From the NCBI GenBank assembly GCA_017397845.1, contig JAFQHU010000002.1, forward strand, positions 1 through 64,000: a DNA stretch of 64,000 nt, in the 5' to 3' direction. Both the position numbers and the translations under genes were made by a program. The first letter of the stretch is position 1. Every line of letters starts with the position of its first letter. Positions 34,330 through 49,977 of this stretch are shown one piece after another. This DNA comes from Clostridia bacterium. GTDB taxonomy: Bacteria > Bacillota > Clostridia > Oscillospirales > Acutalibacteraceae. The notes below the pieces were generated by a model. It did no database searches. It saw nothing but the letters and a program-made list of their open reading frames with translations, and was not told the DNA's origin.

Positions 34330-36564
34330 ATGTATCAATGTGAAGAATATACGAACCTTCAGTTATATAACTTTTTTAATGATTTTTCCGTTATAATGGC
34401 CTTTGTCCTTATTTGTTTTCTTTTTATTTTTAAGAGCAATACACTCGGCCGGGGTTCTGAATACTTTTTAAAAAACATGTCAAAAAACAAAAATAAAAGT
34501 TATCAATTTGTCCGGTTTATTTTCGCAGTTGCTGAAGCATGGCTTCTTTGGTTTGCGCAGATAAAATTAGGTGAATTTAACCGTGTTTTTGGAGATCTTA
34601 TAGGTACCGGTGCTAATTATTTCGGAACACTTTTTATTTCTCCGATCATGGTTTCTCTTTTTGCTCTCCTATTTGGCAGGGATGTTTTCAGGCTGATGGA
34701 TCTTGTTACCATAGTTTATCCCTTTAAGCTTATTTTTGTTAAGCTCGCCTGCTTCTGCGGAGGTTGCTGCCGCGGCTTCGCCTGTTCTTTCGGATTATAC
34801 AACTATTCATCCGAGCAAACAGAGTTTCCTGTCCAATTGGTAGAAATGGCTTTAGCTGCTGTGATTTTTGTTTTTCTTCTTTTCTACAGAAAGAAAGCCA
34901 AAGAAGGTACAATGTTTCCCATATATATAATAATTTACAGTGCTACCAGATTTTTCAGTGAATTTCTGAGGTGTGAAGAAAATGTTTTCTTTATTTTGAA
35001 AAAATATCACATTTTATGTCTTATAGGTATAGCAGTGGGTTTCTTTTTATTGTTTGCTGTCGAAAAATACAAAGAAAAAATACGCCGATTTTACTATGAT
35101 TACTTCGATGCTGTCGAGGATACATTCGACGATATAGCCGTAAGAATGGGAATAAAAAGGAAGAGAGAAATCGTTCACAGCAAAAAAAAGAAAAACACAA
35201 AGCATGTACCTGTTCAGTCTGCCGCCAAAAAACAACGCATTTCCGATATGAAAAAGTGGATTATAATTTGGACACTCGGACTTATCGGACAGATCGGCTG
35301 GAACGTTGAAAGCTCTTGGTTCAATACCTTTGTTTATGAAAAAATAGACAAAAACCCTTCAATTATTACTCCTATGCTCATTATGAGTGCATTTGCCACC
35401 ACCGTATCAATGATTTTTTTCGGTACACTTACTGACCGCACGGGTAAACGCCGCACTTTGGTAAGTACAGGCTTTTTTATCTGGGGTATACTTATTGTAT
35501 GTTTCGGTCTGGCTCAGTATATTGTAAAAAGCAACTTTATTTTAGCTATTGTATATATGGTTATAATGGATATGCTGCTCAGCTTTTTCGGCTCCATGAG
35601 TACCGACATCGGCTACAGCACCTGGCTTACAGATATAATGAACGACAGGAACCGCGGACAAATAGGCGGTGCAATTGCAATTCAGGCTGTACTCGGCTCC
35701 ATGTTGGGCAATATTATCGGCGGATATATAATAGGTACTGAAAACAATTATATGAGGCTGTTTATCGTTATCGGCTCCTTCTTATCCTTTTTCGGAATGA
35801 TTTCAATATTTCTCTTTGATAAAAAGGACGATGTCAAACCATTCATCGAAGGAAGCTTTTTACGGCAATTGCTGAGTGTATTTGATTTCAAAACGCTTAA
35901 GAAAAGCAAAGAATTTTTATGGATTCATGTTGCTGTGGCATTGTTCTTCACCGGTTATAACACCTATTTCCCTCATTTAGGTAATATGCTTATCGATTAT
36001 CTTGACTATTCTGCCACTCAGATGGGTATAATAATGGCAGTGCCTTTGTTGTTTGCCATGCTGGTAACTGTTCCGGTATCAAAGTTCATCAATAATAACA
36101 AATATATCGAAGTTTCATTAGTTTCGATTATAACGGGTCTGATAGGAAATTCCTTTATGTTCAATATCCTTCCGGAGCATATTGATACAGAAAAAACCTT
36201 TAATCTCAGAATCTATTCTGCTATATTTCTTGTAGGTGTAAGCTTTATTATCATGCTGCAGGCTACCAAAACTTGGACAAAGAACCTCTTTCCCAAGAAT
36301 GCAAAGGGAAAATATGAGGGATTATGGGCGATTGCATTTGCATTTATACCCATGCACTCTGGTTCTCTCATAGGTGAATGGGTTATAAAAAATAACGGTG
36401 TAAGCTTTATAAACACCGTTACGGAACGATATGAATATATACCGGACGGAAAGATATTTTTGGTCGGTGCGATAATATCAACATTAAGTATTATACCTAT
36501 TATAATAACAAAAAAATACATCAACAAAAATGAAAGCTCTTTAAAAACAGAAAGCATAAAATAA
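34330..36564 (+). CDS. Lgt-like domain fused to a major facilitator transporter
   Basis: A 744-residue membrane protein. Residues about 90-245 resemble prolipoprotein diacylglyceryl transferase: KLACFCGGCCRGFACSFG in the place of the Lgt GNF/GCC loop, EFPVQLVEMALAAVIF (HPTQLYE-like), and YSATRFFSEFLR with the conserved Arg and Glu-Arg. A basic linker (about 270-305, SKKKKNTKHVP) joins a 12-helix MFS part (about 306-735) with motif A GTLTDRTGKRRTL and SVSFIIMLQ-like late helices. The family His in HPTQ is Phe here (FPVQ), so classic transferase chemistry is doubtful. It lies 49 nt after the MreB-like gene and is convergent with the NRPS unit. Moving a lipid or lipopeptide is possible but unproven. 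Confidence 0.75.
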   Translation: MYQCEEYTNLQLYNFFNDFSVIMAFVLICFLFIFKSNTLGRGSEYFLKNMSKNKNKSYQFVRFIFAVAEAWLLWFAQIKLGEFNRVFGDLIGTGANYFGTLFISPIMVSLFALLFGRDVFRLMDLVTIVYPFKLIFVKLACFCGGCCRGFACSFGLYNYSSEQTEFPVQLVEMALAAVIFVFLLFYRKKAKEGTMFPIYIIIYSATRFFSEFLRCEENVFFILKKYHILCLIGIAVGFFLLFAVEKYKEKIRRFYYDYFDAVEDTFDDIAVRMGIKRKREIVHSKKKKNTKHVPVQSAAKKQRISDMKKWIIIWTLGLIGQIGWNVESSWFNTFVYEKIDKNPSIITPMLIMSAFATTVSMIFFGTLTDRTGKRRTLVSTGFFIWGILIVCFGLAQYIVKSNFILAIVYMVIMDMLLSFFGSMSTDIGYSTWLTDIMNDRNRGQIGGAIAIQAVLGSMLGNIIGGYIIGTENNYMRLFIVIGSFLSFFGMISIFLFDKKDDVKPFIEGSFLRQLLSVFDFKTLKKSKEFLWIHVAVALFFTGYNTYFPHLGNMLIDYLDYSATQMGIIMAVPLLFAMLVTVPVSKFINNNKYIEVSLVSIITGLIGNSFMFNILPEHIDTEKTFNLRIYSAIFLVGVSFIIMLQATKTWTKNLFPKNAKGKYEGLWAIAFAFIPMHSGSLIGEWVIKNNGVSFINTVTERYEYIPDGKIFLVGAIISTLSIIPIIITKKYINKNESSLKTESIK

Positions 36565-36605
36565 AATTAATCTCTGTTGCGACACCGCAACAGAGATTAA
36601 TTTTT
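36565..36605. terminator. Bidirectional terminator between the Lgt/MFS gene and the NRPS unit
   Basis: A perfect 17-bp stem (36565-36581 with 36586-36602) and loop ACAC, with TTTTTATTTTT on the + strand and a TTTTATTTTA-like tract on the minus strand. Confidence 0.9.
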
Positions 36606-39600
36606 ATTTTTCTTTCAGAAGCATAGCAGCAAGTGTTTCGCTGTTTTCTTTTTGGAAATAATGACTAAGGGAGTCAATAAAATAAATTCCTTCGACTGTC
36701 TCAGCATGCTTTTCCCAAAGTCTTTCTGCTTGAGCATAATTCTTTGTAAACATATCTGATTTGCTTATGATTACACTGACCGGAGCTTTAATTTTTTGGG
36801 GCAGTGTAAAATAAGCATTATTCGCATAATCTGTATCCTTTCGGAACTTTTCAAAAATCAAACGCAGTTTTTCCGAAGATAGCGTTCTGAAATCTGCTCC
36901 CGTCTTTAACAGAATGTTTTTCATCACGAAATCAGGAACATAATTCCAAATATTGATATGCGACGGTTTTGCCGGAGGTATACTTGCACCCGCAAAGTAA
37001 TGACTTACAGATACATTTTTCTTTTCAAGACATGAAATAATCTGCAACGCAACAGCAGAGCCGACACAGTGAGAATATAACATAATCTCCATATTAATAA
37101 GAGCAGAAGCAATTTCCTCTGATGCTTTTTCACACTCTTCCGCTGAATGAAGATATCGCATAAAATAAACTGAAAAATCATCTGATTTACTTGTTACAGC
37201 TTTCACAAGATGAGTGTAAGCCTCCGCCCCGCCACCTGCAAAGGGCAAAAGAATGATTGCTCTGACAGCATTTTCAGAAATATGCAAAGGTTCAAGATAT
37301 TCATATTTCTCATTTTTATTGCTTGATATAATGCGTGCCAAACGTGAAGGCGTTGAGTTTCTCATAAACTCTGCAGCTGTAACATTTTCAAGACCGTCTT
37401 CACTAAGAAGAGAAATCATTGAATAGCTTGTTCCGCCCATTTCAAAGAAATCACTGTCTCTGCCGATATTTTTTTCGCCCAATATTTTTTCAAACAAATC
37501 ACAGAGATATCTTTCCGTATCGTTGACCGGCTTTTTTGCTTCGGTCACATAAGCATTCAGCTCTATGGATGAAAGAATATTCCTGTCAAGCTTTCCGTTA
37601 CGATTAAGCGGCATGGAATCAAGGCGGACAACAAATGACGGTATCATATATCTCGGCAGTTTTTCACGGCAGGTATCCTTGATTAGAGTTTCCATACCTT
37701 TTCTTCCGCTGTAAAACGCCACGAGAACATCTCTGTTGTTCTTTTTTCTGACTGTAACAGCAACAGACTCCGCACCCTGTATATCGGATATAACAGACTC
37801 TATCTCACCCGTTTCTATCCTCTGACCGTTCAGCTTTATCTGACTGTCACATCTTCCGCTAAAAATGATATAGCCGTCCTCTCTCAGATATGCGTTGTCC
37901 CCTGTTCTGTAAAGCTTTCCCTCACCGAAAGGATTATCTATAAATTTTTCCGCCGTCAGGTCAGGATTATTAAGATATCCCTGACCTACATTCATACCGC
38001 CGATACAAAGCTCTCCCGTTACACCCACGGGGACAGGTTTAAGGTATTTGTCTGTGATATATATCTGTGTATTATAAATCGGACTGCCGATGGGTATTGG
38101 GTCTGCATCTGCAGGCGTGCAGTCATAATAAGTCACATCAACTGCACATTCTGTGGGGCCGTAAAAATTATGCAAAGTTACTCTTTCATAATCAAAAAGC
38201 CTGTAGAATCGCTGCACAAGATTTGCCGTTAAAGTTTCACCTGACAGAAACACATATTTTACGGAACTGAATTTTTCTGCTTCCTCTCTATGCTCCTCCA
38301 TATAATTAAGAAACAGTTCAAATACCGAAGGAACAAAATGGATATGTGTTACCTTGTTTTTTTCTGCTTCCTCCAAAATTTTTCCGGGCAGGAAATGCTC
38401 ACCCGGCTTTGAAGCAGCAAGACAACCGCCGCACATACCCCACCAAAAAATCTCCCAAACCGATACGTCAAAGGTATAAGGTGTTTTCTGTAATATTACA
38501 TCTTCTGCACCAAGGGGATATTTGTCGTGCATCCATAATATTCTGTTAACTGCAGATTTATGGCTTACTTTTGCACCCTTTGGGGTTCCTGTTGAGCCTG
38601 AGGTATAAATGACATAGGCTGTATCATCCGGCTCAGCACTGCATGGCAACGCCCCGTTTTCTTTGTAACCGCTCATCAGCTCTGTCATATTGATGCATGA
38701 AATGTTTTTCACCTTGCCGGTATATTTACCTTGTGCGGCAACAGCTGCGGCTCCGCTGTTTTTCAGAATGTAATCTATTCTGTCCTGAGGATAATCGGGA
38801 TCTATGGGCAGATATGCATTACCGCCTCGGATTATACCGTAAACAGCTGCATACATTTCTGCAGACCGCTCCGCTATTACAGCTATTACCGACTTTTTAC
38901 CCTTAGTTATTTCACGTATTCCGGTGTCCACAGCCTTTGAAATACCAAGCAGCTCACCGAAGGTCAGATTTCTCTCTGCCGTTTTGATACATACCTTATC
39001 CTTATTTTTCTCTGCTGTATTTTCAAACAGGCTGTAAAGTGTAGAAGTTTCGGGTATGGCGTATGTATGTGATGTGGTATTTATTTTTTCGATAAGCTTT
39101 GTGTCCGTTACAGAAATATCTTTTATAAAGCTACTGTCAGCCAAAGAGCTGAGTATACGGATATAGCCGTTAATAAAATCAGAAATCTCCCTTTCTGTAT
39201 ACATTCCGTTAACGTATGATATTCTGACTTTATATCCGCTGTCATCCATCATAATTGCAACTGTAAGGTTAAATTCCGTCTGTTCTTCAAATGAAATCAA
39301 TCCGGGCGAAAGAGGACCCTTTTCTATATCTGAAGCATCACCGATGAAATAGTTTTCAAATACAAATAAAGCATCGATTTCTCTGCTGTCAATACCGCTT
39401 GATTTATAAACCTCCGTAAGAGGTAAAACACCGTACTTATTTGCATTGACAGTTTGCAGCTGTATCTCTTTGAGCATGTCTGACAGAGCTGTATTTTCAC
39501 TGTTTCTTATTCTGACCGGAACAGTATTTATAAACGTTCCCACTGTACTGCCGATATTTTTAAGCGGGATATTTCTGCCCGAAATTATCTTATCAAAAAC

Positions 39601-40437
39601 TACATCATCACTGCCGGAATATTTCTGTATGGCAATACCGAAGGCACATTCAAAAACAGTGTTATGTGAAACACGGTTTTCTTTTGCGAGCCGATCAATA
39701 CAATTGGTTAATTCTTCACCTAAGGAGCTGTTTATTGTAACAACATCGTCATTTTTCAAACCCAATTTATTTTCTTTTCCGAAAATATGTGCAGGCATAC
39801 ATTCTGCGAGCAGCCCATGCCAATATTCCGAGGCTTCCGTTTTATCCTGCTTTCTGATCCAATTCACATATTGAGAATATGAGGTTTCCTTTGAAACTTC
39901 TTTTTGTATTTCATCAGAGATTATTTCCTTACTTACTCCCGCTGAAAGCTCTTCATAATATTTCTGTAAATCGTTAATTATTACAGGGAAACACCATCCG
40001 TCCAGAATAATGTGATGTGAATGAACACACATGAAACGCTTATCCGTAAAATCGATAACAGAAACTCTGAAAAGCGAATCACTTTGCAAATCAAGAAAGT
40101 TTTTGATATTTTCTCTTAATATATTATCCAGAAGTAAAGGTGAAAAAGGCTCTTCTTTGCGAATTGTTTCAAAACACGGTTTTCTGTTTTCGAGAATAAC
40201 CTGCTTGATTGCCCCTGTGGATTTTAAAACCGTAAAAGCTGTTTTAAGTGTACGATGACGAAAAGAGAGCAATTCTACACTCTGTTCAAACACAGACAAA
40301 TCAACCTTTTTGCTTATCTCATACAAACTTTTAAGCTGATATGTTTTTGTATCTGTGTTTTGGAAATATTGAGTATATATACCTTCCTGAGAAGGTGTTA
40401 AGCCATATATATCCTTAATATTACTGTTCATCATCAT
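36604..40437 (-). CDS. Nonribosomal peptide synthetase, module 3 with terminal thioesterase (C-A-T-TE)
   Basis: Adds the last residue and releases the peptide. I use the first ATG (40437), which overlaps the end of the upstream NRPS by 17 nt. It has 1277 residues. Condensation about 5-440, with HHIILDG (141-147). Adenylation about 450-955: YVIYTSGSTGTPKGA, TFDVSVWEIF, NFYGPTECAVDV and KLNGQRIETGEIE. Its specificity residues read D-V-W-H-F-S-F-V-D-K, close to the EntF serine code. Carrier about 970-1040 (FFEMGGTSYS, Ser1004). Thioesterase about 1056-1277, in which the GHSMG elbow reads SHCVG, so Cys1124 replaces Ser; the late His lies in SLSHYF (about 1259). Product prediction is in the findings. 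Confidence 0.92.
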   Translation of the reverse strand: MMMNSNIKDIYGLTPSQEGIYTQYFQNTDTKTYQLKSLYEISKKVDLSVFEQSVELLSFRHRTLKTAFTVLKSTGAIKQVILENRKPCFETIRKEEPFSPLLLDNILRENIKNFLDLQSDSLFRVSVIDFTDKRFMCVHSHHIILDGWCFPVIINDLQKYYEELSAGVSKEIISDEIQKEVSKETSYSQYVNWIRKQDKTEASEYWHGLLAECMPAHIFGKENKLGLKNDDVVTINSSLGEELTNCIDRLAKENRVSHNTVFECAFGIAIQKYSGSDDVVFDKIISGRNIPLKNIGSTVGTFINTVPVRIRNSENTALSDMLKEIQLQTVNANKYGVLPLTEVYKSSGIDSREIDALFVFENYFIGDASDIEKGPLSPGLISFEEQTEFNLTVAIMMDDSGYKVRISYVNGMYTEREISDFINGYIRILSSLADSSFIKDISVTDTKLIEKINTTSHTYAIPETSTLYSLFENTAEKNKDKVCIKTAERNLTFGELLGISKAVDTGIREITKGKKSVIAVIAERSAEMYAAVYGIIRGGNAYLPIDPDYPQDRIDYILKNSGAAAVAAQGKYTGKVKNISCINMTELMSGYKENGALPCSAEPDDTAYVIYTSGSTGTPKGAKVSHKSAVNRILWMHDKYPLGAEDVILQKTPYTFDVSVWEIFWWGMCGGCLAASKPGEHFLPGKILEEAEKNKVTHIHFVPSVFELFLNYMEEHREEAEKFSSVKYVFLSGETLTANLVQRFYRLFDYERVTLHNFYGPTECAVDVTYYDCTPADADPIPIGSPIYNTQIYITDKYLKPVPVGVTGELCIGGMNVGQGYLNNPDLTAEKFIDNPFGEGKLYRTGDNAYLREDGYIIFSGRCDSQIKLNGQRIETGEIESVISDIQGAESVAVTVRKKNNRDVLVAFYSGRKGMETLIKDTCREKLPRYMIPSFVVRLDSMPLNRNGKLDRNILSSIELNAYVTEAKKPVNDTERYLCDLFEKILGEKNIGRDSDFFEMGGTSYSMISLLSEDGLENVTAAEFMRNSTPSRLARIISSNKNEKYEYLEPLHISENAVRAIILLPFAGGGAEAYTHLVKAVTSKSDDFSVYFMRYLHSAEECEKASEEIASALINMEIMLYSHCVGSAVALQIISCLEKKNVSVSHYFAGASIPPAKPSHINIWNYVPDFVMKNILLKTGADFRTLSSEKLRLIFEKFRKDTDYANNAYFTLPQKIKAPVSVIISKSDMFTKNYAQAERLWEKHAETVEGIYFIDSLSHYFQKENSETLAAMLLKEK

Positions 40438-43400
40438 CTGTCCAATCAAATAATTCTTTCAATTCGTCCAATTCCTGTTCAGTAAGTTCTTCATCAGAAA
40501 AATCAGACAAGTTTTGCTCAACATTATCGTCAACTGCGCACAAATCCGCAATTTTTACGATTTGCTTCACAAATTCAGTTCCTATATCTTCACAAATATA
40601 CTTTTTATGTATACACTCAGGTACGGAAATATTTACCGTTATGATGCCATCGTTAATAATACAGTTAACATCGATTTTTTTTGAAAATGCGGAAGACCCG
40701 CCATCAAAAGCAATTAATTTATTTCCGTTTCTTTCATTCGTAATACTGTTTCTGTAGAAATTAAATATAATACCGGCATTTTCGGGCAATCCCTGTGACA
40801 AAAGCAGATAATCAATACCGTTTTCGGGTACTTTTCTCAAATCCACTTTAGTTCTGATTAACGCACGGACTATATCTTTTTCACCGTCAAATACTACCGG
40901 ATAACACGATGTAAACCATCCGACGGTTCGTTCAACTGCCACCGCTTTATCAAAGTCTGTTCGTCCGTGACTTTCGACAACTATACCGACAGAACCCTGC
41001 GCAAAATTACAGGCAGCAAGTCCCAATGCTGTCAGAAGCACTTCGTTTGCTCTGACACCGTATATCCTGTCAATTTCATTGATAATCTTATCAGAAACAT
41101 CTTTATCAAATACGTAGCTGTATGCTTCTGCTTCGCATACCGTTCCCGCATCGGAACAAAGAGATTTTACATTTCCAAGCTTTTCGTTGACCCTTTTCCA
41201 ATACTCACTGCTTTCTTCCGATATTTTGTCAGAATACTTATGAAGCTCCTCATTCCACAGAATAAAGGGTGCAGTTTTGGGCGGTAAAGATATTTCTTCT
41301 TTATTTTTCAACTGTTCAACCGCTGTCTGAAAATCTTTTATGAGAATCTCCCATGATACCAAATCAACTAAAAAATGATGAATTGTTATACTGATAAGAT
41401 TTGCTTTGGCAGTAATGCAGAACACGGCACTCACGAGCTTATCTTCACTGAGCTTTACATCCTTCAGATACTCTTTTGCTTCATTCTCATCATCCATACG
41501 GACTGACCTGAACGAATATACCCTTCTTTCCTCTGACGGATGAATTTCAATGCCTCCGTCACAGAAGGTACCCCTCAGTATATCGTGATGAGAAACAAGT
41601 GCATCGAGCGCTTTTTGTGCCGCAACCTCATCGCAGTCGGCAGAAATAACGCAGGTGTGAACAAAGTCTTTTGAAACAGTGCCGTTTTCTTTTATATATG
41701 CATCCATAATCGGAGTAAACGGTATAAATCCGTTTACCTCTCTTTGCTCATACACTGTTCTGTCAGATAAAGGCTTCATAACCTTTGCAATATCCGAAAG
41801 TGTATCGCTCTGCATAATATCTGCTACACGAAGCTCATATCCCTTTGCTTCCAAATCCGAAGCGATATAGATGGCTTTGATAGAGTCGCCACCCATATTG
41901 AAAAAATTATCAAGCATATTCGCTTTGTTTATTTTAAGTACAGAGCATACAGTCTCCGCCAACGCCTTTTCTTCACAGGAATACGGAGCAAGAAACTCTG
42001 TCTCCGAAGATATGTTTATCAGTTCTGTTTCGGGCAAAGCATTTCTGTTTATCTTTCCGCTCGTCGTCATCGGCATTTCATCAAGATGGATAAATATATG
42101 CGGTACCATATATTGAGGCAATTTATCAGAAACAACCGACCGTAACTCTTTAGCACTAAAATCTTTTCCGGTATAGAAGGCACAAATGAACTGTTGCTTC
42201 TCCTGCTCTCTGACAATTACGGCACACTGAACCACACCGTCCACATTACGGACAGTGTTTTCGATTTCACCAAGCTCTATCCTCTGACCGTTCAGCTTTA
42301 TCTGACTGTCACGTCTTCCGCAGAAAATAATGCTTCCGTCCTCGCGCCAATATGCGTTGTCACCTGTTCTGTAAAGCTTTCCTTCACCGAAGGGGTTGTC
42401 CGGGAATTTTTCTGCTGTCAGCTCAGGATTATTAAGATATCCCTGACCTACATTCATACCGCCTATACAAAGCTCGCCTGTTACTCCGACAGGTACAGGA
42501 TTCATATATTTATCCGTTATATACAGCTTCGTGTTATATATCGGCTTGCCGATGGGAACAGGGTCTGTTTCTGTCGGTAAGCAGGCATAACAGCTTACAT
42601 CAACTGCACACTCTGTAGGTCCGTAAAGATTATGCAGTTGAACTTTACTGTAATCATAAATACGATAAAACCTATTGACATGCTTTGCAGTCAATACTTC
42701 ACCCGACAAAAATACATACTTGACAGTGCTGAATTTGCTTTGCTCTTCTTTGTTATTTTCAAGATATGTCAAAAACATATCGAATACTGACGGAACAAAA
42801 TGTAAATGCGTAACTTTGTTTTTTGCGGTTTCCTCAAGTATTTTCGCAGGAAGGAAATGTTCGTCGGGCTTTGATACACAAAGTGTTCCGCCTGTAATAC
42901 CCCACCAAAAAATCTCCCACACCGAAACGTCAAATGTATACGGTGTCTTTTGAAGTATAACATCATTTTCTTCCAACGGATAAAAATCATGCATCCACAG
43001 TATTCTGTTAACTGCAGATTTATGGCTTATCTTTGCGCCCTTAGGATTACCTGTGCTGCCTGATGTATAAATTACATATGCAGTATCATCCTCTTTGGCG
43101 AGACAGAGTGTTTTTTTCGGTTTTTCCGCCGAATCAAAAGCTTCCGTAGCATCAATACACGGTATATCACCTGATAGATGACAGAAATTGCTCTGTGCTA
43201 CTACTGCCGCCGCTCCGGAACTTCGCAGAATATAATCTATTCTGTCCTGCGGGTAATCGGGAGCTATCGGCAAATATGCATTACCGCCGCGGATAATACC
43301 GTAAATTGCACCGTACATTTCAAACGAACGCTCCGCTATTACTGCTATTACGGACTTTTCTTCGTTTGTAATCGCTCTTACTCTGCTGTCTATTCTTTCT

Positions 43401-46400
43401 GCATATGCCTTAAATCTTTCAAATGTGATTTCTTTGTCATTTGCTTTAATACATACCTTCCCTTTGTTATTTTCACTTGCCGTATCAAATAACGAATAAA
43501 GGGTTGATTTTTCAGGTATGTCATATACATGTGCCGTATCATTGAAATCATGAAGAATCGAATTTTTATCTTTGTCGTTTAAAGCTGAAATATCTCTGAT
43601 AAGCGTTTCTTCGTCGAGTGCTCTCGTGAGTATCAGGCTGTACGCTTCAATAAAGCGTCTGACCGTAGCCTCACTGTACAAATCGCTGCAGTATTCCACA
43701 GCAAGCACTACATCCTCTTTTCTCGGTAATATATTAAAGGTTAAATCACATTTTGATGCATCTGTTGTCAGCGGTATAACCTCCGCCTTTTTGTCTGCAA
43801 AGGTGATATCCGTCATCTCATAGCTCTGATATGCCAACATTACATCAAACAGCGGATTTCTGCCGGCTGTATTGATGCCGAGCTTTTTGACCAGCTCGCC
43901 GAAGGGATAACTCTGATTGTCTATCGCCTCTATCGAGCTGTCTCTGATTTCTCCGAGAAGCTCCGCAACCGTTTTTTCGCCTTTTGGGGTACTCCTTAAA
44001 GCTATCGTGTTTACGAACATTCCCACAGTATCAAGATATCTGCTCTGTCTTCCGCTTATGGGAGTTCCCACCGCTATATCCTCATTACCCGTCAGCTTCG
44101 AAAGAAGTATGCTGAAGCACGCCATGTAATATACATATGGCGTTATTCCTCTTTCCTTACTCTTTTCTTCTATTCTCCTGTGCAGATGTATATCTATCAG
44201 CTCATACAGGTTATTTCCTCTGAAGCTTTGCATTACTCCCCGCGGATAATCTGTCGGCAGATTGAGTTCGGGTACCTTTTCCGCAAACTCTCTCAGCCAA
44301 TATTTCTCGTTTTCTTCGGTATATCCCTGCGTTACGGCGAACTCTCCGTACTGTACCGTGTCTGATAATTTCCTGCCCATATACAGATCATTCAGCTCTT
44401 TGAAAAATACAGGCATGCTTTCTCCGTCAACAGTAATATGATGAAGCGATATTACTACCTCATTCTCTGTACATCCCACACGTATCAGCGGTGCTCTGTT
44501 CAGCTCAAAGGGCTTTGCAAAGCTGTTGATATCGGATATATCCTCTACGGTTATCTCTGCCTTTTCTTCAATAATCTGCATTATCTCTCCGTTTATGTTC
44601 TCAAAACGGGTTCTGAGGCTTTCGTGTCTTTCAATCAGTCCGTTTACGGCTTTTTCCAGCTGTTTCTTATCCGGGTTTTCCGTTCTGAAGGCAAAGGTCA
44701 CATTATACATCATTGAATCAGGCTTCATCATCTGTGCCGTATATACTCTCAGCTGAGCCGCTGTGGCCGGAATGACGTTACCGTATTCTTTTTTCTCGTC
44801 TTCCTTCTCTTTCACTTCCAGCTTTTCTGCCAGCTCACGTATATCCTTACAGGAGAATATCGTTCTTACGGATACCGTATATTCCTTTTCCTCCAACCTT
44901 GCCGTCAGCTCTATTGCCTTTAAGCTGTCTCCTCCGATATCAAAGAAATTATCCGCTACGCTTACTCTTTCTCTGTTCAGTACCTTTGATATACATTCTG
45001 TCAGCAGTATCTCTTTTTCTGTTTCGGGAGCTTCGTATTCTGTTTCCGTGCTGATGCTTTCAAGGTCAATTTCAGGCAGGCCATTCCTGTTTATCTTTCC
45101 GCTCGTCGTCATCGGCATTTCATCAAGATGGGTAAATATATGGGGTATCATATATTTGGGCAAGCTGACGCCGAGCTCCTCTCTGAGCTCTTTGGCACCT
45201 TTTTCTTTTCCCGTACAGAAGGCGCAGATAAGCTGTCTGTCTTCCTTATCCTTTCTTACAACGACTGCCGCTCTGTCTATTCCCTCCACGGACTGAAGGG
45301 CACTTTCTATTTCTCCCAGCTCTATTCTCAGTCCTCTTATCTTTACCTGGAAGTCGCTTCTGCCCACATAGACTATATTTCCGTCTTCACGCCAATATGC
45401 ATTATCTCCTGTTCTGTAAAGCTTTCCTTCACCGAAGGGGTTGTCCGGAAATTTTTCTGCTGTCAGCTCAGGGTTATTAAGATATCCTGCAGATACAGAA
45501 GCTCCGGCTATGCAAAGTTCTCCCATTACTCCTATGGGTACGGGATTAAGATATTTATCCACTATATATATCTGTGTGTTCGCTATGGGCTTACCGATGG
45601 TTATTTCTGCTTCCGCTTCTGCGTATGCTGACCATACGGTCGTTTCCGTAGGTCCGTAGATATTATATATTTTTGCATCTGTATACCCTTTAAGCTCTTT
45701 TACCAATGTGCTGTCAAGGGCTTCACCGCCGAGGATAATTACCTTAAATGATTTCAGATAATCAAGAGATGCTTTATCGGTTATGAAGGCTTTCATTTTG
45801 GTCGGTGTGGTCTGCAACACATCGACCGGATGTTCAATAATCAGCTCTGAAAGCTTACTCTGTATCTTTGACTGCTCTTCATCGGCAAGGATAATTTCCA
45901 TTCCGTTTACAAGAGGCAGTATTGACTCTGTTACAAATATATCAAAGCCCACTGTTGTTACGGAAAGTATACTATTACTGTCCTTACCTGTTATTCCGTA
46001 AAATACATTTCTTTCATTAGCGGACACATAGTTTGACACATTTCTGTGTGTAATCAATGTTCCCTTTGGCTTTCCTGTGGAGCCCGATGTATATATGCAG
46101 TAGCAGATATCTTCGCTTTCCGATGTATTTACGGGATTTACTGTTTTTGTATTACTGAGAAGCTCATCTACGTTATCTTTTGTTATACACAGCTTTGCTC
46201 CGCTGTCAGATAGCATATATTTTATTCTGTCCTCAGGATGGTCAGGGTCTATGGGCAGATATGCCGCGCCTGTTTTGAGTATACCGAACAAAGCCGACAA
46301 AAGATAACTCTTTCTCGGCAGCATAAGGCCTACTATATCCCCTCTGCCTATTCCCTTTTCTATGAGAGAATGAGCTATTCTGTTGGCTTGTTCATTAAGC

Positions 46401-47800
46401 TCTCTGTAGCTAAGGCTTTTATCTGCTGCAACCACTGCCACCTTGTCAGGTGTTTTTTCTGCCTGTGTCTCAAACAGCTCGTGGATGCATTGGTCTTTCG
46501 GATAAGGCACTGCCGTATCATTGAAATCGCAAAGCACCCTTTGCTTTTCTTCTGCAGACAGCATTTCAAGGTCTATGATTTTTTTATGGGGATGTTCTAT
46601 AGCATCTTCAACTATGGCAATTATGGAATTTATCATAGTCTCAATCTCTTGTTCAGTAAACATACATGTTCTGTAACGTATTTTCAGATTATGATTTTCT
46701 TTGCCAAAAGACTGCATATGGATTTCAAGAGGAAAAGAAAGGGAATTGCTGTAAGGTATCTTAAGTTCATAAGAATTATTTAAATCAAATTCCTGATAAT
46801 CTGCAACAACATCGAAAAGTCTTGATACAGCAATACCTTTTTCTTCCAAAGCTTTTTTTATTTCAATTTGTGTAATTTTTTGGTGTCTGAAAATATTCAG
46901 CTGAGAATTTTCAATAGATTGTATCAGTTCAAAAAAAGATATTCCCTCACTGCACTTCACAACCAGCGGAACAATGTGCATGTAGAGGCCTATGGTATTC
47001 AATTCAGAAGAAAGTGTTCTGTTAAGAACCGGTACTCCCAATGTAAAATGATTTAATCCTGTAGCTTTATAAAAATAAACAGCATAAACCGAATTAAAAA
47101 AGCTCTGAACTGACACATCTGATTTCTCGCAAAAGTTTTTAATTTTTTTTAGAAACGCTGTTTCGACACGCAAATTTACTTCAGATGAATCATAATCGAA
47201 TGTATTATTAGCATATGAAAAAAGCGAATATTTCGTATGCGGATCGAACTCATTTTTCCAAAATTCATAATCACGAAAATATCTTTTTCCCGCCCTGTGT
47301 TTTTCCTCGTTATAGATATATTCTGCATACGGTTGTGTTACTGCACGGTACTCAGGATTTTTAAGATATCTATTAATATCTTCAGCTAAAATATAGGAAC
47401 TGTATCCATCAACTATAATGTGATGTGCATAAATAATAATGCCGGATTTTGTCGGAGTATGAAAAATTACGGGATTAACCAATATACCATAAAAATCCAT
47501 AGGCAAATTCACAAATTTTCTTGCTTCCTCAAGCAATTCTTCATCGGAACCGACCTTGATAAAGGGGAATTTCATATGCTTATAATCTTCTACGTAAGAC
47601 ACAAGACCGACAGGTTTTTCTTTAAACTTAACACGAAGTCCCTCGTGATCTCTCCTGAGTTTGTTGTATGCATCGTTCAATTGGTCGTATGTATATATTT
47701 TAGGAAACACCTGAATAAGGCTCTGGTTCCATATGCTGCTATCAAGAACAGAGCTTTTAGTGTAGAAAATCAATTGTGAAGATGTGGGTTTAAATTCCAT
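40421..47800 (-). CDS. Nonribosomal peptide synthetase, modules 1-2 (C-A-T-C-A-T-E)
   Basis: A 2459-residue synthetase with AGGAGCG 9 nt before the ATG. C1 1-425 (HHIIVDG 126-132) stands first in the line, as in lipopeptide starter domains. A1 435-915 (YTSGSTGKPKGT, FDIFVTES, IYGPTETTVW). T1 about 935-995 (IGGDS, Ser959). C2 about 1005-1420 (HHITVDGES 1130-1138). A2 about 1430-1930 (YTSGSTGNPKGA, LYGPTECAVDV), residues D-V-W-H-F-S-L-V-D-K, the EntF serine code. T2 (MGGDS, Ser1973). Epimerisation domain about 2025-2420 (HHFLVDLVSW 2141-2150; ESHGR 2276-2280, keeping the Glu). The acidic end EELTEQELDELKELF looks like a donor docking helix for the next protein. A1 residues read D-I-T-Q-I-G-I-V-W and resemble Gly signatures only loosely. 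Confidence 0.95.
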   Translation of the reverse strand: MEFKPTSSQLIFYTKSSVLDSSIWNQSLIQVFPKIYTYDQLNDAYNKLRRDHEGLRVKFKEKPVGLVSYVEDYKHMKFPFIKVGSDEELLEEARKFVNLPMDFYGILVNPVIFHTPTKSGIIIYAHHIIVDGYSSYILAEDINRYLKNPEYRAVTQPYAEYIYNEEKHRAGKRYFRDYEFWKNEFDPHTKYSLFSYANNTFDYDSSEVNLRVETAFLKKIKNFCEKSDVSVQSFFNSVYAVYFYKATGLNHFTLGVPVLNRTLSSELNTIGLYMHIVPLVVKCSEGISFFELIQSIENSQLNIFRHQKITQIEIKKALEEKGIAVSRLFDVVADYQEFDLNNSYELKIPYSNSLSFPLEIHMQSFGKENHNLKIRYRTCMFTEQEIETMINSIIAIVEDAIEHPHKKIIDLEMLSAEEKQRVLCDFNDTAVPYPKDQCIHELFETQAEKTPDKVAVVAADKSLSYRELNEQANRIAHSLIEKGIGRGDIVGLMLPRKSYLLSALFGILKTGAAYLPIDPDHPEDRIKYMLSDSGAKLCITKDNVDELLSNTKTVNPVNTSESEDICYCIYTSGSTGKPKGTLITHRNVSNYVSANERNVFYGITGKDSNSILSVTTVGFDIFVTESILPLVNGMEIILADEEQSKIQSKLSELIIEHPVDVLQTTPTKMKAFITDKASLDYLKSFKVIILGGEALDSTLVKELKGYTDAKIYNIYGPTETTVWSAYAEAEAEITIGKPIANTQIYIVDKYLNPVPIGVMGELCIAGASVSAGYLNNPELTAEKFPDNPFGEGKLYRTGDNAYWREDGNIVYVGRSDFQVKIRGLRIELGEIESALQSVEGIDRAAVVVRKDKEDRQLICAFCTGKEKGAKELREELGVSLPKYMIPHIFTHLDEMPMTTSGKINRNGLPEIDLESISTETEYEAPETEKEILLTECISKVLNRERVSVADNFFDIGGDSLKAIELTARLEEKEYTVSVRTIFSCKDIRELAEKLEVKEKEDEKKEYGNVIPATAAQLRVYTAQMMKPDSMMYNVTFAFRTENPDKKQLEKAVNGLIERHESLRTRFENINGEIMQIIEEKAEITVEDISDINSFAKPFELNRAPLIRVGCTENEVVISLHHITVDGESMPVFFKELNDLYMGRKLSDTVQYGEFAVTQGYTEENEKYWLREFAEKVPELNLPTDYPRGVMQSFRGNNLYELIDIHLHRRIEEKSKERGITPYVYYMACFSILLSKLTGNEDIAVGTPISGRQSRYLDTVGMFVNTIALRSTPKGEKTVAELLGEIRDSSIEAIDNQSYPFGELVKKLGINTAGRNPLFDVMLAYQSYEMTDITFADKKAEVIPLTTDASKCDLTFNILPRKEDVVLAVEYCSDLYSEATVRRFIEAYSLILTRALDEETLIRDISALNDKDKNSILHDFNDTAHVYDIPEKSTLYSLFDTASENNKGKVCIKANDKEITFERFKAYAERIDSRVRAITNEEKSVIAVIAERSFEMYGAIYGIIRGGNAYLPIAPDYPQDRIDYILRSSGAAAVVAQSNFCHLSGDIPCIDATEAFDSAEKPKKTLCLAKEDDTAYVIYTSGSTGNPKGAKISHKSAVNRILWMHDFYPLEENDVILQKTPYTFDVSVWEIFWWGITGGTLCVSKPDEHFLPAKILEETAKNKVTHLHFVPSVFDMFLTYLENNKEEQSKFSTVKYVFLSGEVLTAKHVNRFYRIYDYSKVQLHNLYGPTECAVDVSCYACLPTETDPVPIGKPIYNTKLYITDKYMNPVPVGVTGELCIGGMNVGQGYLNNPELTAEKFPDNPFGEGKLYRTGDNAYWREDGSIIFCGRRDSQIKLNGQRIELGEIENTVRNVDGVVQCAVIVREQEKQQFICAFYTGKDFSAKELRSVVSDKLPQYMVPHIFIHLDEMPMTTSGKINRNALPETELINISSETEFLAPYSCEEKALAETVCSVLKINKANMLDNFFNMGGDSIKAIYIASDLEAKGYELRVADIMQSDTLSDIAKVMKPLSDRTVYEQREVNGFIPFTPIMDAYIKENGTVSKDFVHTCVISADCDEVAAQKALDALVSHHDILRGTFCDGGIEIHPSEERRVYSFRSVRMDDENEAKEYLKDVKLSEDKLVSAVFCITAKANLISITIHHFLVDLVSWEILIKDFQTAVEQLKNKEEISLPPKTAPFILWNEELHKYSDKISEESSEYWKRVNEKLGNVKSLCSDAGTVCEAEAYSYVFDKDVSDKIINEIDRIYGVRANEVLLTALGLAACNFAQGSVGIVVESHGRTDFDKAVAVERTVGWFTSCYPVVFDGEKDIVRALIRTKVDLRKVPENGIDYLLLSQGLPENAGIIFNFYRNSITNERNGNKLIAFDGGSSAFSKKIDVNCIINDGIITVNISVPECIHKKYICEDIGTEFVKQIVKIADLCAVDDNVEQNLSDFSDEELTEQELDELKELFDWTDDDEQ

Positions 47801-47868
47801 CTTTGAATCGCTCCTATAGTTTTTTTGACCTTAAAACGCATATATACATTACAGTTTATCCATAATAT

Positions 47869-47898
47869 ATTATAACTCAATAACGGCATTAATGTCAA
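47869..47898 (-). promoter_or_regulatory. NRPS operon promoter
   Basis: On the minus strand: TTGACA (47898-47893), 18 nt, TATAAT (47874-47869), about 69 nt before the NRPS ATG. Confidence 0.75.
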
Positions 47899-47906
47899 GA
47901 AAACGA

Positions 47907-47953
47907 TAGAGGCAATTACTGTTTCATTTTTTAGAGGCATTTACTGTTTCATT
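47907..47953. repeat. Two 22-bp direct repeats between divergent promoters (operator candidate)
   Basis: 47907-47928 and 47932-47953 differ at one position and share TAGAGGCA, then TTACTGTTTCATT, with a 25-bp period (about 2.4 helical turns). They occupy the space between the -35 boxes of the NRPS and ligase promoters. Confidence 0.75.
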
Positions 47954-47964
47954 AAAATAAAGGG

Positions 47965-47993
47965 TTGAAAAAAATTTTTTTTCAAGGTATAAT
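47965..47993 (+). promoter_or_regulatory. Acyl-ligase promoter with palindromic spacer
   Basis: TTGAAA (47965-47970), 17 nt, TATAAT (47988-47993). The stretch 47965-47985 is a palindrome, TTGAAAAAAA around a central T then TTTTTTTCAA, lying over the -35 box and spacer. Confidence 0.75.
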
Positions 47994-48026
47994 AGACAAT
48001 AATTTTTAGTTTTTGAGGTGAAAATA

Positions 48027-49745
48027 ATGAAAAGAACTCCTAATATTTGGAGTAAACATCACGGAAAAGACAATTTCATCACGGAATATCCTGACTATTC
48101 TATGTTCACATGTGTACAGAAAACAGCCGAAAAATATCCTGAATACGTGGCTTTAGAATTTCAAAATAAAAAGACTACATATTCAGAAATGATTTCACAG
48201 ATAGAGTTGATAGCTCAGTCTCTTTTGGCAAGCGGAGTAAAAAAAGGTGACTATGTATCTGTAGTTGCCCCCAATACACCGCAAGCTCTTAACATGGTTT
48301 ACGCTATTAATCGGATCGGTGCAATAGCCAATATGATTCACCCTTTACTTTCTGTTAATGAAATCAAACAGTTCGCAGAAAGTGTTGAAAGTGTAGCTAT
48401 ACTCACCTTTGATTTATTGTACAAAAAAATTGCAGAAATAGAATGGGAAATACCCCACAAGCCTCTTATGATTATTGCAAGAATTGCAGATGCTCTTCCC
48501 TTTTATTCAAAATCGTTTTATTTAATGAAAAACAGATTAAAATTAAACTTTAACCCAAACCATGAAATCATTTATTGGAATGATTTTCTCAGAAAAGGGA
48601 AAGCAAGAAAAGCAGACCTTGCCCCCGATGAAGGTAAAGGTGAAGACATTGCTGTCATCCTTTACAGCGGCGGCACAACCGGTATTCCAAAGGGTGTTAT
48701 GCTTCAAAACAAGGCCTTTAATGCTATTGCAGTTCAATCTTCGGAAATTAAGCCTTTTGATGTAAAAGAACGCGTTGGAAAAAAAGTGCTCGGTCTTATG
48801 CCTGCATTTCACGGCTTCGGGCTTGCCATATGCATGCATATGACACTTGCTGAGGGTGGTCATCTTTGCCTTGTACCAAAATTTGATTACAAGGCTTGTA
48901 CAAGGTTGATTTTTAAGAAAAAAATCAATCACATATATGCTGTTCCCGCCTTGTTTGAAACATTGTGCAGAAGTGAAGAAATTGAAAAATCAGACCTTTC
49001 ATTTATAGATATGGTTGCCATTTCCGGTGATAAGTGCGATAAAAAGCTCATTAACCGTATGAATAAATATCTGGAAAAAGGCAATTCAAAAGCCAGAATC
49101 TTGGAAGCATACGGACAGACAGAAAGCGTATCGGGCGTTGCAATCAACCCCTTCTTTGCTCCGAAAGAAGACAGTACCGGTATACCTTTCCCTGACAACG
49201 AAATTAAAATAGTGAAAATCGGTACCCATGAAGCATTACCTGCATGGGAAGACGGAGAAATATGCGTTTTAAGTCCGACTCAAATGAAAGGGTATTATAA
49301 AAACGATAAAGAAACCGCCCGCGCTCTTCAAAAGCACGCAGACGGGAAAAATTGGCTGCACACCGGCGATATCGGCTGTATGGACGAAGATGGATACATT
49401 TATTTCCGTCAAAGGTATTCAAGAATGATTATTGTTGCCGGCTATAATGTGTATCCCACACAGATCGAAAACATAATTAACACATGTGAAAATGTCAATA
49501 CCTCCTGCGTTATAGGTGTAACAGGCAAAGCCGGTATTCCAAAAATTGTTGCTGTCGTTCAGCCGACAAGTATGGATATAGATTTTGATTTGCTTCGCAA
49601 AGAAATTCTTGAGGTTTGCGAAAAAAATGTAGCCGACTATGCCATACCCCAAGAAATTGTTTTCAGGGAAGAAATGCCGAAAACCGCTATGGGAAAGGTA
49701 AGCTTCAAAAAGTTAACTGAAGAAATGGAAAATAAGAAAGGATGA
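48027..49745 (+). CDS. Acyl-AMP ligase (FadD/FAAL-like) of the lipopeptide locus
   Basis: Activates a carboxylic, probably fatty, acid as acyl-AMP for loading onto the carrier encoded 7 nt downstream. ATG at 48027 follows GAGGTG; the GTG at 48018 sits inside that site. The 572 residues have AVILYSGGTTGIPKGVML (P-loop), LPAFHGFGL-like MPAFHGFGLAICMHM, EAYGQTESVSG, LHTGDIGCMDEDGYIYF, RYSRMIIVAGYNVYPTQIE and the C-terminal KTAMGKVSFKKL with the catalytic Lys. That is the order of class I adenylate-forming enzymes. CoA versus carrier use is not decided by motif; the free carrier next door argues for the carrier. Confidence 0.88.
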   Translation: MKRTPNIWSKHHGKDNFITEYPDYSMFTCVQKTAEKYPEYVALEFQNKKTTYSEMISQIELIAQSLLASGVKKGDYVSVVAPNTPQALNMVYAINRIGAIANMIHPLLSVNEIKQFAESVESVAILTFDLLYKKIAEIEWEIPHKPLMIIARIADALPFYSKSFYLMKNRLKLNFNPNHEIIYWNDFLRKGKARKADLAPDEGKGEDIAVILYSGGTTGIPKGVMLQNKAFNAIAVQSSEIKPFDVKERVGKKVLGLMPAFHGFGLAICMHMTLAEGGHLCLVPKFDYKACTRLIFKKKINHIYAVPALFETLCRSEEIEKSDLSFIDMVAISGDKCDKKLINRMNKYLEKGNSKARILEAYGQTESVSGVAINPFFAPKEDSTGIPFPDNEIKIVKIGTHEALPAWEDGEICVLSPTQMKGYYKNDKETARALQKHADGKNWLHTGDIGCMDEDGYIYFRQRYSRMIIVAGYNVYPTQIENIINTCENVNTSCVIGVTGKAGIPKIVAVVQPTSMDIDFDLLRKEILEVCEKNVADYAIPQEIVFREEMPKTAMGKVSFKKLTEEMENKKG

Positions 49746-49752
49746 ACAAATC

Positions 49753-49977
49753 ATGATAGAGCGTATCGAAAAGGTTTTCTCAGAAGTTACGGGGAACCAA
49801 AACATTGAATTAACACCAAAAACCAAGTTAAATAAGCTTCCCGGTTTATCGTCGTTAGGAATTATCCAACTTATCTGCGGTCTTGAGGATGAATTTGACA
49901 TCGAGATACCAAATTCGGCAGTAAAAAAATTTAAAACTGTCAAAGACGTAATTAGTTTTATCGAGAAAAATAAATAA
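49753..49977 (+). CDS. Freestanding acyl carrier protein
   Basis: A 74-residue four-helix carrier. The phosphopantetheine site is in LPGLSSLGIIQLICGLEDEF: the Ser before Leu-Gly takes the place of the DSL serine, and the usual Asp in front of it is Ser. The helix III signature EFDIEIPNSAVKKFKTVKDVISFIE is typical. Encoded 7 nt after the acyl-AMP ligase, it probably accepts the acyl group and passes it to the first condensation domain of the divergent NRPS. It depends on a phosphopantetheinyl transferase that is not in the window. Confidence 0.9.
   Translation: MIERIEKVFSEVTGNQNIELTPKTKLNKLPGLSSLGIIQLICGLEDEFDIEIPNSAVKKFKTVKDVISFIEKNK

Follow-up and report, generated by a model that had tools for sequence, protein, structure and literature searches.

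The obafluorin synthetase ObiF (Pseudomonas, Burkholderia diffusa) and the sulfazecin synthetase SulM are the described systems closest to the release domain of a compact nonribosomal peptide synthetase (NRPS) locus in an uncultured member of the Clostridia (Acutalibacteraceae) whose near relatives inhabit the ruminant gut. The locus occupies positions 36604-49977 of contig JAFQHU010000002.1 (assembly GCA_017397845.1), of which a stretch of 64,000 nucleotides (positions 1 to 64,000), here called the window, was analysed. Among solved NRPS thioesterases (TEs), only ObiF (obafluorin, a beta-lactone) and SulM (sulfazecin, a beta-lactam) are reported to combine a cysteine nucleophile with a triad aspartate at position II (PMC11298585), a pairing which has been tied to the closure of four-membered rings (PMC6668435, PMC11298585). 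The TE of AB3403 also possesses a cysteine, but its aspartate is located at position I (PMC11298585), and the ObiF variant C1146S is confined to hydrolysis (PMC6668435).

ObiF is the best match of the window TE in both sequence and fold. The two domains share the cysteine, the aspartate on strand beta6 (position II) and the lack of an aspartate on beta5, and in both lines the last carrier holds, or is predicted to hold, an N-acyl beta-hydroxy-amino acid. However, obafluorin derives from 2,3-dihydroxybenzoate (DHB) and a nonproteinogenic beta-hydroxy residue, whereas the window line displays a fatty-acid ligase and a code for Ser. Moreover, ObiF carries fused MbtH-like and aryl ligase domains, while the window line, which is of clostridial origin, is free of such fusions and comprises three modules with a free acyl carrier protein (ACP). 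SulM resembles the window line in that it too is part of a tripeptide line, whose TE has Cys and a position-II Asp and forms a four-membered ring (PMC11298585). Its beta-lactam, however, is formed from N-sulfonated diaminopropionate (Dap) by a TE with a Gln-Cys-Asn motif, in contrast to Ser and His-Cys-Val in the window.

Daptomycin-type lipopeptide synthetases comprise a ligase, a free ACP and a starter condensation (C) domain, all of which recur in the window; they terminate in a macrocyclising Ser TE, whereas the window line is very short and ends in an ObiF-type TE. Short lines for electrophilic peptides also occur in gut Clostridia, in the form of the dipeptide aldehyde or ruminopeptin NRPSs, whose release is reductive. 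Those lines yield dipeptide aldehydes (PMC12327764), while the window line has a Cys TE and no reductase domain. The Oaa fatty acid amide pathway of Coprococcus eutactus likewise consists of a free ligase/adenylation protein, an ACP and a starter-like C domain, but is without adenylation-carrier (A-T) modules or TE (PMC13142362).

Release domain and proposed product

Module 3 of the window line ends in a thioesterase, as the earlier note on this DNA had read from the letters. According to phmmer, AlphaFold and Foldseek the domain is an alpha/beta-hydrolase TE; its Pfam score lies under the cut-off (21.0 vs 26.4 bits). Residues are numbered according to the open reading frame.

36607..37296, minus strand: TE, cysteine thioesterase of ObiF/SulM type (phmmer, triad alignment, AlphaFold, Foldseek)
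37066-37068, minus strand: triad residue Cys1128
36754-36756, minus strand: triad residue Asp1232
36661-36663, minus strand: triad residue His1263

The best match in the PDB by sequence (phmmer) is 6n8e, ObiF1. The nucleophile is the Cys of an SHCVG motif, which is GXCXG-like with S rather than G in first position. Cys, Asp and His align with Cys1146, Asp1254 and His1284 of ObiF (chain numbers of the structure minus 20, the 20 residues being taken as a tag). The triad Asp is situated at position II (beta6) and none follows strand beta5, where the window TE and its relatives have Gly or Ala at the Asp site of ordinary TEs (G1173 region of ObiF). With the AlphaFold model of the TE (predicted local distance difference test, pLDDT, 92.9), Foldseek ranks ObiF1 first (template-modelling score, TM, 0.86), SulM TEs second to fifth and type II TEs next. 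A tree of TEs places ObiF, on a long branch, with the Cys group and apart from type II TEs, with a support of 100/100.

A Cys nucleophile alone was rejected as a criterion, since it is found in 7 of 15 other, unrelated synthetase-embedded TEs of the class, collected through PF00975 as a control set in which Ser and Cys nucleophiles are mixed. The control TEs possess Asp after beta5 in 13 cases and Ser or Asn there in the other two, and none of the 15 unites Cys with both the loss of the beta5 Asp and an Asp at position II. Because Cys occurs among them without the other features, it is the combination that marks the group.

When 84,980 species genomes were scanned with an alignment of the TE, 12 close loci and one distant locus came up, all in metagenome-assembled genomes (MAGs) named Clostridia. 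For 11 of the 12 close loci the isolate name points to a ruminant gut (goat, sheep, deer, yak, buffalo), and one goat MAG contributes two of them. All 12 retain SHC[VA]G as well as the Cys/Asp/His triad, and the last A domain displays a Ser code, whole or partial, in 10 of the 10 loci where it is readable; L024 and L028 are cut before this domain and were left out of the count.

Given the Ser code of A3, a beta-hydroxy-amino acid is predicted on the carrier preceding the TE, and terminal Ser suits ring closure because it carries the needed beta-hydroxyl. On the combined basis of sequence and structural model, we therefore favour, as the probable though far from certain outcome, that the line builds N-acyl-Gly-D-Ser-Ser and that the chain leaves it as a beta-lactone of Ser. 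The acyl-X-D-Ser-Ser tripeptide of the earlier note holds, with X probably Gly, and has good support from Ser codes in A2 and A3, an intact epimerisation (E) domain, a starter-grouped first C domain and a ligase and ACP that are kept in relatives. The ObiF/SulM type of the Cys TE, the most telling feature, had been overlooked; it predicts a beta-lactone in place of the plain acid that the note implied.

In the proposed mechanism, the ligase would adenylate a fatty acid and then load the free ACP, and the starter C domain would couple the acyl group to Gly on T1. C2 would add Ser on T2, which the E domain would convert to D-Ser, and C3 would add the final L-Ser on T3. The TE cysteine would take the chain as a thioester, which the terminal Ser would attack through its side-chain hydroxyl, giving release as N-acyl-Gly-D-Ser-Ser-beta-lactone. 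Such a product would be a thiol- and serine-reactive electrophile and would therefore probably inhibit some protease or another hydrolase covalently. Of this scheme, the order of domains, the codes, the E motif, the grouping of the starter C domain, the triad and fold of the TE and the joint conservation of terminal Ser and Cys TE are read from sequence or model, whereas the nature of the acyl chain, the loading of the ACP, Gly as first residue, the closure of the ring and the target are deduced. Protease targets are plausible because N-benzyloxycarbonyl (Cbz)-serine beta-lactone, a synthetic analogue, has been described as inhibiting cysteine proteinases (Lall 1999, as cited in PMC12297239).

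Few NRPS routes are known to beta-lactones, strained and reactive rings that inactivate enzymes potently and covalently, and the characterised one, to obafluorin, requires a special beta-hydroxy amino acid. A ring closed on ordinary Ser by lines of one to four modules would provide reactive lipopeptides with a simple natural template. It would add an electrophile class alongside the known gut peptide aldehydes, a natural covalent-inhibitor class made from plain Ser in strict anaerobes and independent of any unusual amino acid. No description of a Ser-derived beta-lactone natural product was found in the open-access library searched, though a report in a subscription journal may exist. The proposal can be put as a testable sequence rule: a TE with Cys and position-II Asp behind a last A domain for Ser or Thr predicts a beta-lactone.

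Alternative release reactions

Several observations weigh against beta-lactone release of this peptide. The TE is only 21% identical to ObiF over the model. The Gly call for A1 relies on agreement with a Gly code at 6 of 10 residues. In L049 and L050, related Cys TEs go with Asp-like last codes (DLTKVAHVSK and DLTKIANVSK), and the link of Cys TEs to beta-hydroxy residues is therefore not absolute. No dedicated exporter or immunity gene lies beside the window cluster. Finally, type II hydrolytic TEs share the position-II Asp arrangement, though with a Ser nucleophile.

This last point, together with hydrolysis being the commonest outcome for TEs, speaks for the main rival, namely mere hydrolysis of the chain by the TE, which would yield acyl-Gly-D-Ser-Ser as a linear lipotripeptide acid. 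We consider this unlikely. The C1146S variant of ObiF ties hydrolysis to Ser (PMC6668435), and every member of the group has Cys, whereas all stand-alone type II TEs found have Ser. Furthermore, terminal Ser or Thr, which a hydrolase does not need, is kept across divergent loci while the upstream residues vary.

Cyclisation through a Ser hydroxyl to a macrolactone, or the joining of several acyl-Gly-D-Ser-Ser units to an ester ring, appears decidedly improbable. The terminal Ser and the Gly-Ser order do recall bacillibactin and enterobactin, whose units are DHB-Gly-Thr and DHB-Ser, respectively, and EntF is among the NCBIfam matches of the modules. However, the EntF TE has its triad Asp on beta5 (PMC6668435), unlike the window TE, and the ligase matches long-chain fatty-acid ligases instead of DHB ligases. 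In addition, the one-module relative L021 would give acyl-Ser, for which only beta-lactone formation, hydrolysis or oligomerisation remain.

Transfer of the chain by the Cys TE to an outside nucleophile such as an amine, giving an amide or ester conjugate, has a very slight probability. Cys acyl-enzymes are efficient acyl donors, and gut Clostridia are known to produce lipid amides (Oaa pathway, PMC13142362), but the cluster is without a candidate amine-making gene and the conserved terminal Ser/Thr would be left unexplained. A beta-lactam as in SulM was rejected on the His-Cys-Val motif (not Gln-Cys-Asn) and the Ser code (not Dap), a trilactone siderophore is made unlikely by the fatty-acid-type ligase and the Cys TE with position-II Asp, and a peptide aldehyde was rejected as no reductase domain was found in the Pfam scan.

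Starter unit, modules and order of the two proteins

Four genes make up the locus, ligase and free ACP being divergent from two NRPS genes. All open reading frames of the earlier note are in place (36604-40449 and 40421-47800, minus strand; 48018-49745 and 49753-49977, plus strand), as is its compact line of AMP ligase, ACP and three modules, with the order C-A-T-C-A-T-E plus C-A-T-TE by Pfam and motifs.

48018..49745, plus strand: fatty-acid AMP ligase, 575 aa (PF00501 237 bits, PF13193; ATG 48027 is an alternative start)
49753..49977, plus strand: free ACP, 74 aa (PF00550 34.4 bits)
47801..48017, no strand: divergent control region, one promoter-like site facing each gene pair
40421..47800, minus strand: NRPS 1, 2459 aa, C1-A1-T1-C2-A2-T2-E (Pfam/NCBIfam, motifs)
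46559..47800, minus strand: C1, starter-type condensation domain, HHIIVDG (grouping in C/E tree)
45071..46474, minus strand: A1, code DITQIGIVWK, Gly-like (code from alignment)
44825..45004, minus strand: T1 carrier domain, FFDIGGDS (Pfam, motif)
43556..44779, minus strand: C2, ordinary (LCL-position) condensation domain (C/E tree)
42029..43483, minus strand: A2, code DVWHFSLVDK, Ser (code from alignment)
41771..41953, minus strand: T2 carrier domain, FFNMGGDS (Pfam, motif)
40484..41728, minus strand: E, epimerisation domain, predicted D-Ser at position 2 (HHFLVDLVSWEIL motif, tree)
36604..40449, minus strand: NRPS 2, 1281 aa as listed, C3-A3-T3-TE (Pfam; start probably ATG near 40437)
39136..40416, minus strand: C3, post-epimerisation (DCL-type) condensation domain (C/E tree)
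37570..39027, minus strand: A3, code DVWHFSFVDK, Ser (code from alignment)
37330..37509, minus strand: T3 carrier domain (PF00550 24.1 bits)

Since the best NCBIfam and PDB relatives of the ligase are long-chain fatty-acyl-CoA ligases, we infer, rather than read directly, that it loads the free ACP. Ligases 47-65% identical stand beside the NRPS in L021, L023, L026 and L031, while that of L020 is more distantly related; each is adjoined by a homologous ACP. Ligase and ACP accordingly accompany the NRPS in 5 of the 5 relatives with intact upstream DNA, and the recurrence of the cassette indicates that the layout is not due to chance.

PDB ranking gave weak, mixed matches for C1, and a tree of 29 C and E domains, labelled by position in the line, was therefore used for subtyping. 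C1 clusters with 10 further C domains that open a line (100/99), and LCL- and post-E-type domains fall outside this cluster; a place among the LCL domains would have refuted the starter assignment of the earlier note. As the tree contains no named Cs reference, the label starter type is drawn from position in the line and from the ligase and ACP beside the relatives. We propose that C1 acylates Gly.

Pfam detects three C or E, two A and two T domains in the 2459-aa protein and one C, one A and one T domain in the 1281-aa protein. The A2 code is identical to DVWHFSLVDK, which we take to be the Ser code of EntF, and that of A3 is one position off. A1 resembles DILQLGLIWK, presumably a Gly code, and residue X at position 1 is, judging from this code, probably Gly. 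The A1 code occurs again in L025 and L031, and as DITQLGIIWK in L022 and L023.

The third PF00668 match of NRPS 1 proves to be an E domain by its HHFLVDLVSWEIL motif. Module 2 thus ends in epimerisation, as anticipated, and since HHxxxD is intact the second residue should be D-Ser. In the tree, its neighbours are the E domains from L020 and L030 (100/100), C2 joins 7 mid-line C domains from relatives (100/99), and C3 joins C domains following E in L020, L029 and L030 (100/99). In L020 and L029, E and the next C domain are located on one polypeptide and joined by a linker (SDFTDDTLTQAELDEL...), which the C-terminus of NRPS 1 (SDFSDEELTEQELDEL) resembles. In the window and L030 the linker is divided between two proteins, which, compared with the joined form, supports that NRPS 1 hands the chain to NRPS 2.

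Relatives, control region and genomic surroundings

The relatives differ in module number, with one module in L021 (acyl-Ser), two in L023, L026 and L031 and at least four in L022, and most likely make shorter or longer congeners, as far as their codes tell. The code order Gly-like, Ser, Gly-like, Ser in L022 (2-10690) suggests duplication of a module pair. Directly downstream of the one-module relative (L017 2486-7761), a response regulator, a histidine kinase, an ABC ATPase and a large FtsX permease are encoded, possibly serving export or self-protection. The TE is present in 3 of 299 other genomes of the family, and the cluster is therefore an accessory trait.

In the distant loci L032, L048 and L053, a Cys position-II TE is paired with the Thr code DFWNIGMVHK. 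These proteins (L032 405-4466, L048 2798-6697, L053 6301-10368) are single-module C-A(Thr)-T-TE synthetases with a starter-type C domain and, in the stretches read, without an adjoining fatty-acid ligase; from their domain content they are candidates for making N-acyl-Thr-beta-lactone. We give even chances to a family of Ser-derived beta-lactone lipopeptides of one to four residues in animal-gut Clostridia, with ObiF-like TEs and a Thr version in distant cousins. L052 (9333-16013) harbours a Ser-coded single-module NRPS with a Cys TE. Next to it lie genes that resemble those for an ACP, one reductase and two ketosynthases, which would fit a starter made by a fatty-acid pathway of its own. In L049 and L050 (1-20000 each), a major facilitator superfamily (MFS) transporter is fused behind the ObiF-like Cys TE (GQCVGG); these TEs may close a ring on beta-hydroxylated Asp, or act otherwise.

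The divergent control region seen in the earlier note is real: it spans 217 bp and holds a sigma-70-type match in each direction (12/12, minus strand, 47898-47869; 11/12, plus strand, 47965-47993), with 4 promoter-like sites in total vs 2.1 in shuffles. The TTG start listed for NRPS 2 (40449) is probably wrong, as an ATG run (MMMN, from about 40437), which overlaps the 3' end of the NRPS 1 gene, fits by sequence. Inside the four-gene block there is no transporter and no tailoring gene.

The flanks look unrelated, with MreB, RecD2 and a prolipoprotein diacylglyceryl transferase (LGT)-MFS protein on one side and a radical SAM protein and isocitrate dehydrogenase on the other. In the LGT-MFS protein (34330-36564), an LGT-like domain is fused to an MFS transporter, and the MFS part alone is matched in most other genomes of the genus. 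As to synteny at the insertion site, the two flanking genes reside mostly on separate contigs in other genomes of the genus. An Sfp-like phosphopantetheinyl transferase (PPTase) is encoded elsewhere in the genome, and several separate condensation-domain proteins (PF00668 matches) lie outside the window. One of these (L004 1036-2601) displays HHLAMDA, with Ala after the motif Asp, a feature reported to be typical of fatty-acid-amide C domains (PMC13142362).

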